The translations under genes and the position numbers were made by a program. Below are positions 20,657 through 39,375 of a DNA stretch of 40,767 bases, in pieces (the first letter of the stretch is position 1; each line of letters starts with the position of its first letter). The stretch comes from Candidatus Nitrosomaritimum khambatensis. Lineage in GTDB: Archaea > Thermoproteota > Nitrososphaeria > Nitrososphaerales > Nitrosopumilaceae. The notes beneath the pieces were generated by a model. It saw nothing but the letters and a program-made list of their open reading frames with translations. It was not told the DNA's origin and made no database searches. The stretch spans positions 955 through 41,721 of the forward strand of contig WVWY01000002.1 of the NCBI GenBank assembly GCA_011773785.1. Direction: 5' to 3'.

Positions 20657-21556
20657 TTGATATATTTAACCCAAAGAATAGGAGTTGAGTTATTGTTGTT
20701 AAAAAGTGCGGACCTTAACCAAATTATTATTAAAAAAACGATCACTGTTAGCCCCAACACAAGTCTTCTAAATGCTAGAGAAATTCTCCTTAGACACAAT
20801 CTAAAGCGATTAGTAGTGGTTGATTCTAAAAAACGACCTATTGGAATTATTACCGAAAAAGATATTGCAAAAACAATTTACGCTCTAGGAGACAAGCCTA
20901 TCAAAACTGTCAAGGTATCTGGTTTTATGTCTAAGAAATTATTTAACGTAAAGAAATCAGCCTCAATTTATGACTGCGCCAAGTTAATGAGAAGACATAG
21001 AATCAGCTCAGTAATAGTAATTGGAAAAAATGGAGTTTTGGAAGGTTTGATAACAAAAACAGATCTTGCATCAATTTTTCTTACACATGCAGTATCTCCT
21101 CTCAAAGTTTCAAAAATAATGACTCGAAAAGTAATTACGGCAATGCCAGGAGATTCTTTACTTTATGTTGAAAGCTTATTGATTCATAACAGAATTTCTA
21201 GAATTGTTGTTCAACGAAATAAAGTTCCAGTTGGCATAATAACATACAGAGATTTTGTTCCGGCAAAATTACCACATTGGATTGCTCAATATGCAGACCC
21301 AAAAGAAGTAGAAGACTACAGGACAAAGAAAGATCTTACCGATTTTCAAGTTAATCAAATGAGTCATTTGCTTCATTTCAAAGCAGTAGATATTATGGCT
21401 TCTAATCCAATTACAGTAAATGCAGATGAAGATGTCGGTGTGGCTGTGCTATTAATGATTAGAAATGGAGTTAGTGGATTACCAGTAGTAAAAAATTCAA
21501 AACTTGTGGGAATAATCACAAAAGCAGATATTGTAAAGGCTATTGCTGAATCCTAA
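20657..21556 (+). CDS. Multi-CBS-domain protein (about four CBS motifs; start uncertain)
   Basis: Repeated R..VV....PIGIITEKDIAKTI-type motifs. Confidence 0.88.
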   Translation: MIYLTQRIGVELLLLKSADLNQIIIKKTITVSPNTSLLNAREILLRHNLKRLVVVDSKKRPIGIITEKDIAKTIYALGDKPIKTVKVSGFMSKKLFNVKKSASIYDCAKLMRRHRISSVIVIGKNGVLEGLITKTDLASIFLTHAVSPLKVSKIMTRKVITAMPGDSLLYVESLLIHNRISRIVVQRNKVPVGIITYRDFVPAKLPHWIAQYADPKEVEDYRTKKDLTDFQVNQMSHLLHFKAVDIMASNPITVNADEDVGVAVLLMIRNGVSGLPVVKNSKLVGIITKADIVKAIAES

Positions 21557-21557
21557 T

Positions 21558-21986
21558 CTATTTTACAATAAGGATTGAACAAGGAGAACTATTTGCTAGC
21601 TTATTAGAAACACTTCCAAGGAAAAATCTTGCTGTAGCACCAAGACCTTTGTTTCCAACAATAATTAGGTTGCAATTTTTAATTTTGGCAATCTTTACAA
21701 TTTCATGAGTAATGTTTCCTTCTTTCATAATGGTGGTAACATCCAGTCCTTCTTTTTTTGCAGTTTCCCTTCCTTTTAGGAGAACTTTTTCTCCAAATTT
21801 GCGTAAAATTCCAAGATACTCTTTTTTATCTAGCAAATTAAGTGAGCGAGGTTTATCCACCACATAGAGTAAAATCAGATTCGATTGGTAATTTTTTGCG
21901 AAATCACATGCCTGGACAAGTGCTTTTTGTGAATATTCTGAACCATCTAATGGGACTAGTATATTCATGTAGAGGGATTTACGCAT
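21558..21986 (-). CDS. Universal stress protein (UspA family)
   Basis: NILVPLDGSEYSQKAL...IIVGNKGLGATARFFLGSVSNKLANSSPCSILIVK. Confidence 0.92.
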   Translation of the reverse strand: MRKSLYMNILVPLDGSEYSQKALVQACDFAKNYQSNLILLYVVDKPRSLNLLDKKEYLGILRKFGEKVLLKGRETAKKEGLDVTTIMKEGNITHEIVKIAKIKNCNLIIVGNKGLGATARFFLGSVSNKLANSSPCSILIVK

Positions 21987-22171: not shown

Positions 22172-22600
22172 ATGATTAGAAAAAAAATTAAGAAAATTTT
22201 GGTACCTCTGGATGGATCAAAAAATTCTCTTCGAGGGTTAGATGAAGGGATTTATCTTGCTAGACAATGTCAAGCGACCATCACAGGCTTGTATGTAATT
22301 CCAATTTATCCTAGAAATTTAGCTGATGCTATTATGCCATTTCAGATTCATCTTACTAAGGAGGCTAAAAAATTCATGTCTGATGCAAAAACTAGATGTG
22401 CTAAAAAAGGTATAGTATTCAAATCTAAAGTTGTTTTTGGAAGTCCAACTGTAGAGATTCAGGATTTGTCAATGGCAGGGAAATTTGACATTATAGTTAT
22501 TGGTTCACGAGGTCAAAGCGGGATAAAAGAGGCATTTCTTGGAAGCGTGGCAAATGCAATTGTTCATAAGTCCAAAGTTCCTGTATTAGTTGTAAAGTAG
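22172..22600 (+). CDS. Universal stress protein (UspA family), paralog A
   Basis: KKILVPLDGSKNSLRGLDEGIYLARQCQATITGLYV...IVIGSRGQSGIKEAFLGSVANAIVHKSKVPVLVVK. Confidence 0.93.
   Translation: MIRKKIKKILVPLDGSKNSLRGLDEGIYLARQCQATITGLYVIPIYPRNLADAIMPFQIHLTKEAKKFMSDAKTRCAKKGIVFKSKVVFGSPTVEIQDLSMAGKFDIIVIGSRGQSGIKEAFLGSVANAIVHKSKVPVLVVK
22187..22297 (+). repeat. 111-bp perfect inverted repeat, left arm (within uspA paralog A)
   Basis: Identical base by base to the reverse complement of 24118-24228. Confidence 0.95.
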
Positions 22601-22607
22601 TGATAGT

Positions 22608-23078
22608 ATGTTTTCAAAAATGTTAACAAAAATTTTGGTACCTTATGATGGTTCAAAGTATTCTGTGAAGGCTTTAGCAAGAGCTATGGAACTTGCACAT
22701 AATTTAGATTCCGAGATTTTCTTGTTGTCGGTTGTAAATGTTGGATATATTGCTCCTCCAGGTCTTTTACATGGTTTGGTAAAATCTAAAAAAGAAAAAG
22801 ATGCGGTTAAGAAATGGGCCAAAACAGTAAAGACTGATGCAGAAAAGATGTTAAAAAATGCCTTAAAAAAGTGTGAATCAAAGGGAATTTCAGCCTCTTA
22901 CAAAGTAGAGGAGGGAGACGTTGCTGGAAAGATATTAGATTTTGAAAAAAGAAAAAAGATTACTCTAATTGTGATTGGGAGTCATGGCCTTCATGGGCTA
23001 GGTAAGCTAAAAACTTTGGGAAGTGTCAGTCGAAGGGTTTCTGAAAATGCAAAATCTCCTGTTTTAATTGTTAGATGA
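22608..23078 (+). CDS. Universal stress protein (UspA family)
   Basis: KILVPYDGSKYSVKALARAMELA...IVIGSHGLHGLGKLKTLGSVSRRVSENAKSPVLIVR. Confidence 0.92.
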   Translation: MFSKMLTKILVPYDGSKYSVKALARAMELAHNLDSEIFLLSVVNVGYIAPPGLLHGLVKSKKEKDAVKKWAKTVKTDAEKMLKNALKKCESKGISASYKVEEGDVAGKILDFEKRKKITLIVIGSHGLHGLGKLKTLGSVSRRVSENAKSPVLIVR

Positions 23079-23079
23079 T

Positions 23080-23310
23080 CTAAGCAAGTTCTCCTAGAAA
23101 GTGAATTATGTCTTTATCAACCACAACGGTTCTATCTTTTGGAACACGAAATAATTTTTTAGAACCACTAGAAGACTGAACAATTAATTTTGAGAATGGG
23201 TCTTTTGTTGCTTTGTATAAAATCCCCTTATCCCCAATAGACTGGGACCAATGTGTTCCTTGTACGAATGATACTGTTTGAAATTTAATTACTTGATATG
23301 AATAAACCAT
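23080..23310 (-). CDS. Hypothetical protein
   Basis: 76 aa ORF, tightly packed between neighbours. Confidence 0.6.
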   Translation of the reverse strand: MVYSYQVIKFQTVSFVQGTHWSQSIGDKGILYKATKDPFSKLIVQSSSGSKKLFRVPKDRTVVVDKDIIHFLGELA

Positions 23311-23314
23311 TTTC

Positions 23315-23752
23315 CTATTCTTTTTGCATTCTCATAAGTATTTGATCACAAATTCTTCTCATTTCAGAATCAGAACCAACGCTACAAATCTCAACTAAAT
23401 CGGTTGTGGTTATAATTCCAGTTACCTTTGAATCTTCAATTACAGGTAGCTTGTGAATATTGTTTACTTTCATGGATTCAGCTGCCTCCCAAACTGTTTC
23501 TTCGGGTCCAATAGAAATTAGGGGAGAAGACATTACTTCTTCTAGTGTGGAGGTCAAGGGTTTTTCTTTTGCAGCTATTCTTCTAACAAAATCTCTTTCA
23601 GTTAGAATCCCAATGGGTAAATTTTGTTGGGTAACAATAATGCAGCCAATATTCTTTTGTTCCATTAATTTTGCCGCATCCATAATCATTGAAGAGGAAT
23701 CTAATGAAGCAATGTTAGTTATCATTACATCTTTTACAAATGTGTGAGCCAT
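23315..23752 (-). CDS. Two-CBS-domain protein
   Basis: VKDVMITNIASLDSSS...IGILTERDFVRRI...KVTGIITTTDLVEI. Confidence 0.9.
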   Translation of the reverse strand: MAHTFVKDVMITNIASLDSSSMIMDAAKLMEQKNIGCIIVTQQNLPIGILTERDFVRRIAAKEKPLTSTLEEVMSSPLISIGPEETVWEAAESMKVNNIHKLPVIEDSKVTGIITTTDLVEICSVGSDSEMRRICDQILMRMQKE

Positions 23753-23814
23753 ATTGTTGAGTCAGATTATATTCTAATAAACAGGATCCTAATTTTCAGA
23801 ACAAAAAATGGCCT

Positions 23815-24237
23815 TCATTTTACAATAAGAACAGGTAATTTGGATTTGTGAAGAACGTAGTTTGAGGTGCTTCCAAGAAAGGCTTCTTTTAGAGAACCTA
23901 ATCCCCTTGATCCGATAATAATGATGTCATATGACTTGGTTTCTGCATAATTGATAATTTTTTTTCCCTCATCACCATACACTACTTTGTCCTCAAATAG
24001 AATTCCATTTTGAGCTGCCCGTTTTTTTGCTTTTGACATGAATTTTGCCGCATCAGTCAAAAGATGCTTTTCTATGTAAGAGATTTGAGAATCCGTTTTT
24101 GGTTTTGCTAAGGGTACTACATACAAGCCTGTGATGGTCGCTTGACATTGTCTAGCAAGATAAATCCCTTCATCTAACCCTCGAAGAGAATTTTTTGATC
24201 CATCCAGAGGTACCAAAATTTTCTTAATCTGTACCAT
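23815..24237 (-). CDS. Universal stress protein (UspA family), paralog B
   Basis: KKILVPLDGSKNSLRGLDEGIYLARQCQATITGLYVVPL...IIGSRGLGSLKEAFLGSTSNYVLHKSKLPVLIVK. Confidence 0.93.
   Translation of the reverse strand: MVQIKKILVPLDGSKNSLRGLDEGIYLARQCQATITGLYVVPLAKPKTDSQISYIEKHLLTDAAKFMSKAKKRAAQNGILFEDKVVYGDEGKKIINYAETKSYDIIIIGSRGLGSLKEAFLGSTSNYVLHKSKLPVLIVK
24118..24228 (-). repeat. 111-bp perfect inverted repeat, right arm (within uspA paralog B)
   Basis: Reverse complement identical to 22187-22297. Confidence 0.95.
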
Positions 24238-24314: not shown

Positions 24315-24842
24315 TTGATTTTCAGAAATGAGATTTTACAAAGTCTATTATATTTGAAAATCAGGAATCAAATGATAATGGTACCAGATGCAAGGCAAAT
24401 TACTGTTAAAGACATCATGACAAAGTCTGTAATTTCAGTAGATGCATCTATGACAGTTAATGAAGCTGCCAAGATGATGGAAGATGCCAAAGTTGGTGCA
24501 GTAATTGTTATGGAAAACAATACTCCTATAGGAATAGTAACCGATAGAGATTTTGCTGTAAAAATTGTTGCGCACGCATATCAAATTACCACGCCAGTTA
24601 AACAAATAATGTCAACTCCATTAATTGCAACAATCCCAGATGAAACCGTGTTGATGGCTGCTGATTTAATGTATACTAGGGATATTCGCAAATTGCCTGT
24701 TATTGATAATGATAAGGTGGTTGGAATAATTACTGCAACTGACTTGGTAAACCAATTAGCAATTGCAACCGAAGATGATATCCAAAAAATGTACCATGAA
24801 TCTGTGATTAAGGTTTACAAACAATATAGTCCGTATAATTAA
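24315..24842 (+). CDS. Two-CBS-domain protein (start probably nearer 24372-24378)
   Basis: ITVKDIMTKSVISVDASMTVNEAAKMM...IGIVTDRDFAVKI...KVVGIITATDLVNQL. Confidence 0.9.
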   Translation: MIFRNEILQSLLYLKIRNQMIMVPDARQITVKDIMTKSVISVDASMTVNEAAKMMEDAKVGAVIVMENNTPIGIVTDRDFAVKIVAHAYQITTPVKQIMSTPLIATIPDETVLMAADLMYTRDIRKLPVIDNDKVVGIITATDLVNQLAIATEDDIQKMYHESVIKVYKQYSPYN

Positions 24843-25223
24843 TCAACTGTTAACAATTGCACCCACTATAGATTTTCCTGCAATTAAGGCTCCAATGGAC
24901 AGTCCAACATTTGCGATAATATTTACTGCTAGTGCTCCGTAATGTTGGTTATCAATTAGATTACTAGAATCTAATGCAAAAGATGACATCGTTGTCAAAG
25001 AACCACAAAACCCAACGGCTGCAAATAGAGAATATCTACCATCAAGATTCCATTGTTCAGATAATATCACAAAGGTTCCCAGGATAAAGGCTCCAATTAC
25101 GTTAACAATCAAAATATTCAGTGGTAATGTATTGAAGAGTAATGGAGATTCGGTGATTTTATACCTAAGAAAGGCACCAAAAACTGATCCTGCTGCTAAA
25201 AAAACAAATTCAAAACCTTTCAT
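24843..25223 (-). CDS. crcB: CrcB/Fluc-type fluoride channel
   Basis: GSVFGAFLRYKITES, NVIGAFILGTFVI, GFCGSLTTMSSFALDS. Confidence 0.92.
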   Translation of the reverse strand: MKGFEFVFLAAGSVFGAFLRYKITESPLLFNTLPLNILIVNVIGAFILGTFVILSEQWNLDGRYSLFAAVGFCGSLTTMSSFALDSSNLIDNQHYGALAVNIIANVGLSIGALIAGKSIVGAIVNS

Positions 25224-25783: not shown

Positions 25784-26704
25784 GTGGTAGCGTATTATTC
25801 TAGTGATTATGATGTCAAGTGTCAATTAGATACTTGCAAAACCTACCCTGTAATTACCGATTCTGAAAGAGGAGAAGTTCTTTGTGGGGGTTGCGGTCTT
25901 GTCTTAGTGCAAAACTTAGACGATGTATCACACGATACTAGAAGTTACAGTTCTGAAGAATTTATGAAGAATGCTAGAACAGGTCCTGGAACATCATTGA
26001 CAATGTTTGATAAGGGACTATCAACTGTAATCGGTACAGACAAAGATTCCACAGGAAAAAGTCTATCAAGTAAAACAAAATATGAATTCAATAGGCTTCG
26101 TACTTGGGATCAACGTAGTAAATCTAGAAAGACTACTTCGTTAAGTAAAGCCTTTACTTTATTGCATGGAATGAAGACGAAGATAGGAGTTCCAGATAAC
26201 GTAGTTGAAAATGCAGCCTACATATATCGAAAAATTGTAAGTGCAAAATTAACAAGAGGTAGAACAATGGCTTCATTGATTTCTGCATCTCTTTATGCTG
26301 CATGCAGACAAAACAATATTCCTAGAACTCTGGATGATATTGCGGAAGCAGGGAACGTAGAAAGACGGATTTTGTCTAGGGACTTAAGGACAATAATCAA
26401 AAAACTAAGCTTGAATCTTAATCAGTACGATACTACATCATTTATTGCAAAAATTTCTAACAACATGAAATTAAGCGAGAAGACCAAAAGAGATGCCTTT
26501 GATATTCTCAAGAAATGTGAGAATGAAAAGATAACTGCTGGAAAGCATCCGGTAGCACAAGCAGCAGCGTCATTATATATTGCTGCAATCTTGAATGGAG
26601 AAAAAATGAGTCAAAAGAAATTTTCAAACGAGTCTGGCGTAAGTGATGTCACAATCAGAAACAGAGCAGCTTTAATCAAAAAAACTCTGGGATTATCTGA
26701 TTAA
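25784..26704 (+). CDS. tfb: Transcription initiation factor IIB (TFB), atypical zinc ribbon
   Basis: GTG start; ITDSERGEVLCGGCGLVL; two cyclin-like repeats (ASLISASLYAACRQNNIPRTLDDIA; KHPVAQAAASLYIAAIL...VSDVTIRNR). Confidence 0.93.
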   Translation: MVAYYSSDYDVKCQLDTCKTYPVITDSERGEVLCGGCGLVLVQNLDDVSHDTRSYSSEEFMKNARTGPGTSLTMFDKGLSTVIGTDKDSTGKSLSSKTKYEFNRLRTWDQRSKSRKTTSLSKAFTLLHGMKTKIGVPDNVVENAAYIYRKIVSAKLTRGRTMASLISASLYAACRQNNIPRTLDDIAEAGNVERRILSRDLRTIIKKLSLNLNQYDTTSFIAKISNNMKLSEKTKRDAFDILKKCENEKITAGKHPVAQAAASLYIAAILNGEKMSQKKFSNESGVSDVTIRNRAALIKKTLGLSD

Positions 26705-36741: not shown

Positions 36742-38190
36742 ATGTTGAAAAAAGAATTAACATTTGCCCTAGATTATGCCTTGAATAAGGGTTTTCAGAT
36801 TCATCCAGATGCTTTTGAATTTTTAGAAAATGTTGATTCAAAAAAACTTGAAAAAATCATTAAAGATATTGTACGTGATAAGACCAAACAAAAGCAATTT
36901 CAAATAAACCAAAATGACCTTGAAAATTATTTTGGGATTAAGGAGGATAAAGACCTAAAGGTTGAGTATAAGGTTCTGTTTGACCCTTCATTAAAAATCA
37001 CAAGTGGAGAAGGTATTAGCGGCTACAATTCATTGTTTGTAAGTAGGTTCAACAAACTAAAGCGCATAATTTCTGATAGGCCAGAATCACGCCTGCTCAA
37101 ATCTATCTCAGCAGTAAAAACCGCAAAAACAGATGATGATTTGTATATTGGAGGTTTGGTAACAGCCAGAATAAGTGAAAGGAATATCACCAGACTAATT
37201 CTTGAGGACCCAACAGGCTCATTTGAAGGAATTATCTTTGATAATGAGTTGCAAAAGACAGCAGATTTACTCCTAAGTGACCAGTTTGTGATGGCTCGAC
37301 TCACCCTTGGTAAGAATTCAGGTTTTATCATCAAGGATTTGATATTGCCTGATATTCCTGATCAAGCCTCAAATAGATCAGATTCTGAGGTTTTTGCTGT
37401 TTTTCTTTCAGATCTGCATGTTGGAAGTAAATATTTCATGGAGGAAGAGTTTTCTGATTTTGTTGAATGGTTATCAAGTCCCGACCCTGTAGCTCGAAAA
37501 ATAAGATTCATCTTAATTGGAGGAGATGTGGTAGATGGAGTTGGTATCTATCCCAATCAAGATAAGGAACTTGTTTGTCAGACGATTGAGGAGCAATTAA
37601 AAAAATTAGAAGATCTAATAAGCAAAATACCAAACCATGTAAAAATTTTCGTCATGCCTGGTAATCATGACCCAGGAAGAAGGGCATTACCTCAACCTGC
37701 AATTCCCAAAAAATACAACTCGAGTCTTTGGGATCGGGAAAATGTGATAATGGTTGGTAATCCAGCCGTTGTATCTCTTAATGGAGTCAAAGTCTTGATG
37801 TTTCATGGACAAAGCATTGATGATATTGTAAAAACAACTCCAGGTCTAAGTTATGATAGTCCTACTGATGTAATGAAGAATCTGTTGAGGGCAAGACATC
37901 TTAGTCCAATTTACGGCAGTCAGACTCCTATAGCGCCTGAAATGGAAGACTTGATGGTGGTAGAAGATATTCCAGACATCTTCCATGTTGGGCATGTTCA
38001 TAGGGCTCAATTAGACATGTACAAAGGAATCCTATTGATTAATTCAGGGTCTTGGCAACACCAGACCCCATTTCAGGCTAGTGTTGGGATGACTCCAAAT
38101 CCTGGAATTGCTCTGATGGTGAATTTGAAGACCTTTCAAGTTCTTCATCAAAATTATAATTCTAAATTAGACAATATCTTGCAAAGTTAG
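36742..38190 (+). CDS. DNA polymerase II (PolD) small subunit DP1
   Basis: OB-fold region then LSDLHVGSKYF, GGDVVDGVG, MPGNHDPGRRALPQPA, FHGQSIDD, VGHVHRAQ phosphoesterase motifs. Confidence 0.95.
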   Translation: MLKKELTFALDYALNKGFQIHPDAFEFLENVDSKKLEKIIKDIVRDKTKQKQFQINQNDLENYFGIKEDKDLKVEYKVLFDPSLKITSGEGISGYNSLFVSRFNKLKRIISDRPESRLLKSISAVKTAKTDDDLYIGGLVTARISERNITRLILEDPTGSFEGIIFDNELQKTADLLLSDQFVMARLTLGKNSGFIIKDLILPDIPDQASNRSDSEVFAVFLSDLHVGSKYFMEEEFSDFVEWLSSPDPVARKIRFILIGGDVVDGVGIYPNQDKELVCQTIEEQLKKLEDLISKIPNHVKIFVMPGNHDPGRRALPQPAIPKKYNSSLWDRENVIMVGNPAVVSLNGVKVLMFHGQSIDDIVKTTPGLSYDSPTDVMKNLLRARHLSPIYGSQTPIAPEMEDLMVVEDIPDIFHVGHVHRAQLDMYKGILLINSGSWQHQTPFQASVGMTPNPGIALMVNLKTFQVLHQNYNSKLDNILQS

Positions 38191-39375
38191 ATCATCAGAA
38201 AAGGTCTTTTTCACCATTTCAGGGGCAATTGTCAGTTTGTATTTTTTTGTTCTTCCATGAATTCCTTGGTGAACAAGTCTGCCGCTGATGATACCAGACA
38301 ATTCAATTTCACTTAACATTTGGGTAATTCTACGTTGGGTAAGTTCGTCTCTTCCTACGGCTTTACAGAGAGATTTGTAAGATGAGTAGATTTCACCAGT
38401 TGAGGGGCCACCCGATTTCATTATTGCCAAAATAACTAATTTTTCATGAAGTGGATAAGATTTGAGGGATGTCTCTTCTTTATTCTCTTCAATTTTTTGG
38501 GAGGCCTCTCGTACATGTTCTTCTGTTACCTTATCAGATTGTTGTCTTTCGGCAATTTCTCCTGCAACTCTAATCAAGTCTATGGCTCGTCTTGCATCAC
38601 CATGTTCTCCTCCAGCGAGAGCAGCACATAGGTTAAGAGCAGGTGATTCAACAGAATCCTCAATGAAGGCCTCTTTGATTCTCTCTTCTAAGATTTTTTT
38701 GATTTGTTCTACATTATAGTTTGTAAATACAATTTCTTCCTCTCCAAGACTGCTAATTACGCGTGGATCTAGTTTTTCTTTGAATGTCAGGTCGTTTGAT
38801 ATTCCTACCAAAGTTAGCGAGCCCTGTTCAATTCGTTCGTTGGCTCGAGTTAACTGGTATAAGATATCTTTTCCAGTTTTTGATACTAATTGTGCTAAAT
38901 AATCAATTTCATCGATTACAAAAATCACATTGAGTTTTTCTTCATTGATTTTGTTGAGAATTCTTTTGAAAACCTCACTAATTGCCAAACCTGTTGTTGG
39001 AAGTTCCTTATCAGCCAAGCCTAATTGCCTGCCAAAACTAACAAGTAGGCCGTAAAGTGTAGTCTCCTCTTTAGAGTTGGTATAAACTAATTTTATTGGA
39101 AAATTTGATTTTCCCACCCTTTCTTGAATTTTTGAGATTACTTTCTTAACTACAAGTGTTTTTCCAGTACCAGGCTTTCCGTATACAAGTAGATTAGAGG
39201 GTCTTGATTGTTTGAGGATTGGTAGTAAAGATTGAGTAACTTGTTCTTGTTCAGAGTTTCTATGTTGGATGGTTTCTGGGATATAGGTAAAGTGAAGGAT
39301 ATCGCGATTTTTTATAAGTGATTTTCCAGCTTCTGCAGCATCAAGTAATCTATCGATCGGGTCTGACATACTCAC
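38167..39375 (-). CDS. Orc1/Cdc6 origin recognition initiator
   Basis: NLLVYGKPGTGKTLVVKKV, VIFVIDEIDYL, LTLVGISNDLTFKEKLDPRVISSL, C-terminal winged helix. Confidence 0.96.
   Translation of the reverse strand: MSMSDPIDRLLDAAEAGKSLIKNRDILHFTYIPETIQHRNSEQEQVTQSLLPILKQSRPSNLLVYGKPGTGKTLVVKKVISKIQERVGKSNFPIKLVYTNSKEETTLYGLLVSFGRQLGLADKELPTTGLAISEVFKRILNKINEEKLNVIFVIDEIDYLAQLVSKTGKDILYQLTRANERIEQGSLTLVGISNDLTFKEKLDPRVISSLGEEEIVFTNYNVEQIKKILEERIKEAFIEDSVESPALNLCAALAGGEHGDARRAIDLIRVAGEIAERQQSDKVTEEHVREASQKIEENKEETSLKSYPLHEKLVILAIMKSGGPSTGEIYSSYKSLCKAVGRDELTQRRITQMLSEIELSGIISGRLVHQGIHGRTKKYKLTIAPEMVKKTFSDDLTLQDIV

Follow-up and report, generated by a model that had tools for sequence, protein, structure and literature searches.

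Gene Conversion as the Probable Source of an Identical Tract in Two Convergent Usp Genes of Nitrosopumilaceae

The locus and its inverted repeat

The window, that is, the whole stretch of DNA analyzed here, comprises 40,767 nucleotides of contig WVWY01000002.1 from Candidatus Nitrosomaritimum khambatensis, whose genome is represented by 1.37 Mb in 42 contigs. It contains a block of Usp and CBS-domain genes (table 1). Two of the Usp genes, here called A and C, are convergent, and both of their proteins score above the curated cut-off of the Usp family (24 bits). The 5' ends of these two genes form the arms of an inverted repeat, and the 1820 bases between the arms consist of the rest of A, a further Usp gene (B), the CBS-domain gene cbs1, and the rest of C.

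Direct comparison revealed that the left arm equals the reverse complement of the right arm at 111 of 111 bases, and that identity drops immediately to the ordinary paralog level outside both arm ends. This confirmed the first-pass annotation, which had described a perfect inverted repeat of this length within two diverged uspA paralogs. A repeat search returned arms at 22187-22302 and 24113-24228 (98% identity over 116 nt, with 1810 nt between them). The 111 bases run from codon 6 in A and from codon 4 in C, with an identical register in the two genes. Considering that third-position identity between A and C is approximately 0.3-0.6 over most of the remaining gene length, neither chance nor common ancestry explains such a perfect run.

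Table 1. Positions of the genes and tracts discussed in the text. Positions are those of the window or, for the last four rows, of the locus named.
Feature	Position	Strand	Evidence or length
CBS4, four-CBS gene, left flanking marker	20657-21556	+	Profile match
U0, Usp gene, left flanking marker	21558-21986	-	Profile match
Usp A, 142 aa, PF00582	22172-22600	+	Profile match (E 1.9e-29, 103.4 bits); orthologs found in relatives
Left arm, homogenized tract, codons 6-42 of Usp A (beta1-alpha1-beta2)	22187-22297	+	Identity, relatives, structure model
Usp B, 156 aa, tandem to A	22608-23078	+	Profile match
cbs1, CBS-domain gene between the arms	23315-23752	-	Profile match
Usp C, 140 aa, PF00582, convergent with A	23815-24237	-	Profile match (E 3.2e-30, 105.9 bits)
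Right arm, homogenized tract at the 5' end of Usp C, from codon 4	24118-24228	-	Identity, relatives
cbs2, CBS gene, right flanking marker	24315-24842	+	Profile match
CrcB gene, right flanking marker	24843-25223	-	Profile match
TFB gene, right flanking marker	25784-26704	+	Profile match
Second A-C tract, L037	3403-3444/4619-4660		42 bp
Second A-C tract, L114	2082-2138/3878-3934		57 bp
Second A-C tract, L118	3330-3373/4778-4821		44 bp
Second A-C tract, L121	3261-3329/4655-4723		69 bp

The two arms are the only perfect copies of the tract in the window's genome, the next best match being 73% over 96 bases. Apart from A and C, no pair among the 13 Usp genes of this genome has an exact run of more than 27 nt; longer "direct" matches among them are overlapping flanks of tandem genes. 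Gene B is not homogenized with A or C (its longest exact run with A is 15 nt), and no relative of A was found in viral contigs.

The AlphaFold2 model predicted for A has a mean pLDDT of 77. In it, residues 8-13 form a strand, residues 17-33 a helix, and residues 36-43 a second strand. The tract (residues 6-42) corresponds in this model to the beta1-alpha1-beta2 unit with its conserved PLDGS loop, and its end coincides with the end of strand beta2.

Elsewhere in the window (36742-39375), a gene resembling the DNA polymerase small subunit adjoins a Cdc6/Orc1 gene, and a replication origin may be located nearby.

The tract in related genomes

We searched 250 genomes of the family, in which A-like genes are widespread, and took 40 regions for location of the block. 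The gene block is kept across several genera of Nitrosopumilaceae. Six genomes of the same genus, including that of the window, have the order U0-, A+, B+, cbs1-, C-, cbs2+ (signs indicate strands) in a single orientation. Within each of them, A and C are either identical over the first 111 bases or differ at one, which is always base 111; between these genomes, the tract agrees at only 85-100 of 111 positions. Species-specific changes, both silent and amino-acid-changing, sit in both copies, as illustrated by the residues LDEA in G001 and QCHA in G006. In the genus of the window (g1) and in genera g5 and g11, nearly all loci have exact inverted repeats of 98-126 bp, and the exceptions either are truncated at a contig end or carry mismatches (one to three, scattered). 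Homogenization is weaker in two genomes of genus g17 (G231 and G232, exact repeat of 63-70 bp) and in G243 (84 bp).

Some relatives lack this pattern. No A-C repeat was found in control loci taken from g14, g15, and g16; in most of the g14 loci, C is located beside cbs2 and there is no convergent A. The convergent pair is present in the g16 loci and also in G010, in which A and C match at 78 of 111 bases and are not homogenized, so the convergent layout alone is insufficient for homogenization. Two genomes assigned to the window's genus (G008 and G005) have another layout, with an exact repeat of 48 bp or none. The distance between the arms does not appear to be critical, since in two g11 genomes (G042 and G036) the tract is still identical with an extra 4-6 kb containing further genes between the arms. 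From their translations, named by eye, we take these genes to be methionine adenosyltransferase-like and radical-SAM-like. The extra stretch (L106:3250-9186 and L113:1289-5578) lies between B and cbs1, in the same orientation in both genomes.

The full set of measurements covered 21 genomes from three genera. Over codons 1-36, A and C differ within genomes at 9 of 2268 bases, versus 15.3 mismatches per 108 bases, on average, in comparisons of this stretch between species. In 17 gap-free genomes, the A and C copies of one genome have a third-position identity of 0.98-1.00 through codon 36, which falls to 0.46 in the six-codon block that follows and to 0.33 in the one after it. Thus, silent sites included, the paralogs A and C are closer within a genome than orthologs are between genomes. 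In a tree of the 111-base tract, the A/C label changes 24 times over 54 rows, with A mostly paired with C of the same genome, whereas a tree of the remaining approximately 300 bases shows a single change of label (support 91/89). This conflict indicates that the tract and the gene bodies differ in history: the pair is old and its tract has been homogenized repeatedly. That the pair is older than the species follows from the common gene order and from the body tree, which separates A and C once.

These observations bear on three other explanations. Taken alone, the perfect identity in the window would suit one recent gene conversion or a recent duplication in the window's lineage only. Such an event is highly improbable and is refuted by the relatives, as the tract is homogenized with species-specific sequence in more than 20 species and both gene order and body tree point to an old pair. 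Of the recent conversion proposed in the first-pass annotation, the conversion was therefore upheld and the recency was not: a tract with nearly the same edges is homogenized in all measured genomes of three genera that keep the block. The same annotation had made a comparison of the tract in relatives part of its refutation test, with unchanged conservation as the refuting outcome; what was found is that silent sites differ between species and match within each.

Selection acting directly on the DNA or RNA letters, for instance through a shared regulatory RNA target or an overlapping signal, might also keep the copies alike. Third positions of codons 19-36 are somewhat more conserved between species (0.69-0.81) than those of the bodies (approximately 0.6), although a large number of these codons can be spelled in only two ways. 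However, a fixed sequence would be conserved across species, and approximately 20-55% of third positions differ between species yet match within the genome; in addition, the window's genome has no third copy of the tract that could act as a co-evolving regulator. Selection for a fixed sequence is rejected by this silent-site divergence, and we regard selection on the letters as very improbable.

An assembly artefact is the remaining explanation of this kind. Some contigs do end within the repeat (L113 and L123), but single-contig genomes (G021, G032, and G033) have exact repeats of 109, 122, and 106 bp, respectively, which makes short-read assembly an unlikely explanation, and many independent assemblies show the repeat with species-specific sequences. 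We consider an artefact extremely improbable.

Gene conversion, inversion, and the edges of the tract

Based on these comparisons of sequences, the inverted repeat is very probably the product of long-running concerted evolution, namely recurrent non-crossover gene conversion between A and C with near-constant edges. Homologous recombination between the convergent paralogs would copy approximately their first 37 codons (beta1-alpha1-beta2), and non-crossover conversion would be so frequent that a genome accumulates almost no differences between its copies. Beyond codon 37, and in the few codons that precede the tract, the two genes would be too diverged to pair, or conversion would be selected against there, and we propose this as the reason for the near-constant edges. 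The machinery is probably ordinary RadA-type recombination. The identical part may serve a common function of the two proteins, such as a nucleotide-binding part, a shared partner, or mixed dimers.

Transfer appears to proceed without exchange of flanks, in that orientation and the pairing of start and body are constant and tracts occur sporadically inside the genes. The first-pass annotation had offered another possibility, in which recombination inverts the approximately 1.8 kb separating the arms and swaps promoter and N-terminus: the start and promoter of A would come to drive body C, and those of C body A. Conversion would then be a by-product of the switch. The arrangement would permit it: the arms are inverted and in the same codon register, followed by different bodies, and the genes would be intact in both orientations. 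Both orientations were looked for among species, but all 27 loci that retain at least one flanking marker (CBS4/U0 or cbs2/CrcB) have the same one, whereas a free switch would give about half. By our own calculation, this places the inverted share below approximately 11% (95%), provided that the loci are independent draws. Body A is always joined to its own start and flank, and orientation is also unchanged in both G042 and G036, whose arms are 4-6 kb further apart. No recombinase domain was found among 40 scanned proteins of the window, some small ORFs being outside the scan. Invertible DNA segments commonly, though not universally, have a linked recombinase gene. Recombination of this sort can, however, run without a known site-specific recombinase: in pneumococcus, inversion occurs between the paralogs of the hsdS loci, and SpnIII recombination reportedly requires none of the known pneumococcal site-specific recombinases (PMC6620402). 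On balance, the proposed inversion was not borne out and a switch of this type is quite unlikely, although a rare inverted sub-population may exist within a population.

Non-crossover conversion predicts tracts that move without the remaining gene, and such tracts were observed. Some species only have a second exact A-C inverted tract, at the GSRGxSGLKEAFLGS motif, with no exchange of the remaining gene (table 1); these are sporadic conversions of another part of the gene. In G003, C has the A-typical GSRGQSGLKEAFLGS inside an otherwise C-type body, which is the look of an internal, non-crossover conversion. Homogenization was also looked for in the other gene pairs of the block and, apart from sporadic short runs, was found for A and C only.

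Several of these short runs were recorded. One species has a 47-bp exact inverted repeat between cbs1 and cbs2 (L108:2080-2126/3183-3229), with repeats of 36-43 bp in the sister locus L109, and it was not seen in other species; this is a sporadic conversion of the second inverted pair in the block. At L120 (G046), U0, A, and C have an exact 30-nt run in common, possibly a short conversion into the third paralog U0. Separately, gene A of G040 has a deletion and frameshift directly past the homogenized tract (L138:2161-2380), which is either a scar or an assembly error.

With regard to direction, we compared the converting A tracts with A and C of four outgroups. The A and C genes of the outgroups share no residue at three columns, and at each of these columns A of all 21 converting genomes has the C-type residue. 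The converting A tracts are also nearer to outgroup C than to outgroup A in 21 of 21 cases for G010, 21 of 21 for G222, and 18 of 21 for G216; for G214 this holds in only 5 of 21, which counts against C as the donor and leaves one outgroup of four not favoring it. Judged from these sequences, the pattern suggests that the C version may have overwritten the A version first, and this applies to the first event only.

All species with strong conversion have similar tract edges. Most simply, the edges would lie where the flanks have become too diverged to pair, and selection against homogenized bodies may help to set them. For homologous recombination to be frequent, 111 bp is a short length, and this counts against conversion; a minimum length for recombination in archaea was sought for comparison and none was found. 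A different reading is that copying is actively targeted to the tract, so that the N-terminal parts of two Usp proteins of ammonia-oxidising archaea are reset repeatedly, either by an unknown mechanism or by a transient inversion that always reverts to one orientation, the edges being fixed by the mechanism and not by lack of homology. We regard this as unlikely and favor recurrent gene conversion.

Comparison with known systems

With the A/C pair, gene conversion can be read from a clean natural record in archaea that form a major environmental group and whose recombination is difficult to study in the laboratory. Edges, tract lengths, and residual differences are available from more than 20 species, and non-converting relatives serve as controls. 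This record could be used to ask what the shortest repeat usable in archaeal recombination is, what accounts for the absence of crossovers, and why two genes that otherwise differ keep one part of the Usp protein identical. Our literature search found no paper joining Nitrosarchaeum with gene conversion, and none joining phase variation with archaea and gene conversion.

In Helicobacter pylori, gene conversion reportedly homogenizes part of a pair of outer-membrane paralogs (bab, hom) while another part differs. Unlike A and C, these are bacterial adhesin genes known from strain-level studies. The phase-variable hsdS loci of Streptococcus pneumoniae likewise have inverted repeats inside paralogs with different bodies (PMC4948785, PMC6620402), but they invert within a population, in contrast to the constant orientation of the A/C loci.

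Long-lasting recurrent concerted evolution has been described in prokaryotes for 26 genes, including tuf, amo, and hao (PMC6053082). As in those cases, recurrent conversion has over long periods kept A and C of a species more similar to each other than to their orthologs. Most of the genes in that study encode subunits of complexes, and its text does not mention stress proteins or Thaumarchaeota.

The nearest precedent is the mtrA-1/mtrA-2 pair of methanogens, in which one domain has been homogenized within species over long times and the other part differs (PMC4632066). Both are archaeal paralog pairs with one part converted and the other distinct, and in both the gene order shows that the pair is old. 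They also differ in several respects. The mtrA copies lie in one operon and are homogenized over the whole MtrA domain, what differs between them being a separate membrane domain. A and C, by contrast, are convergent and share a tract of only approximately 111-126 bp, beyond which the same Usp domain continues in diverged form. By the features tested, the A/C pair belongs with known cases of long-lasting concerted evolution, with an unusually short tract; it differs from them in this shortness, in that the genes converge, and in having an edge that falls within a single small domain.
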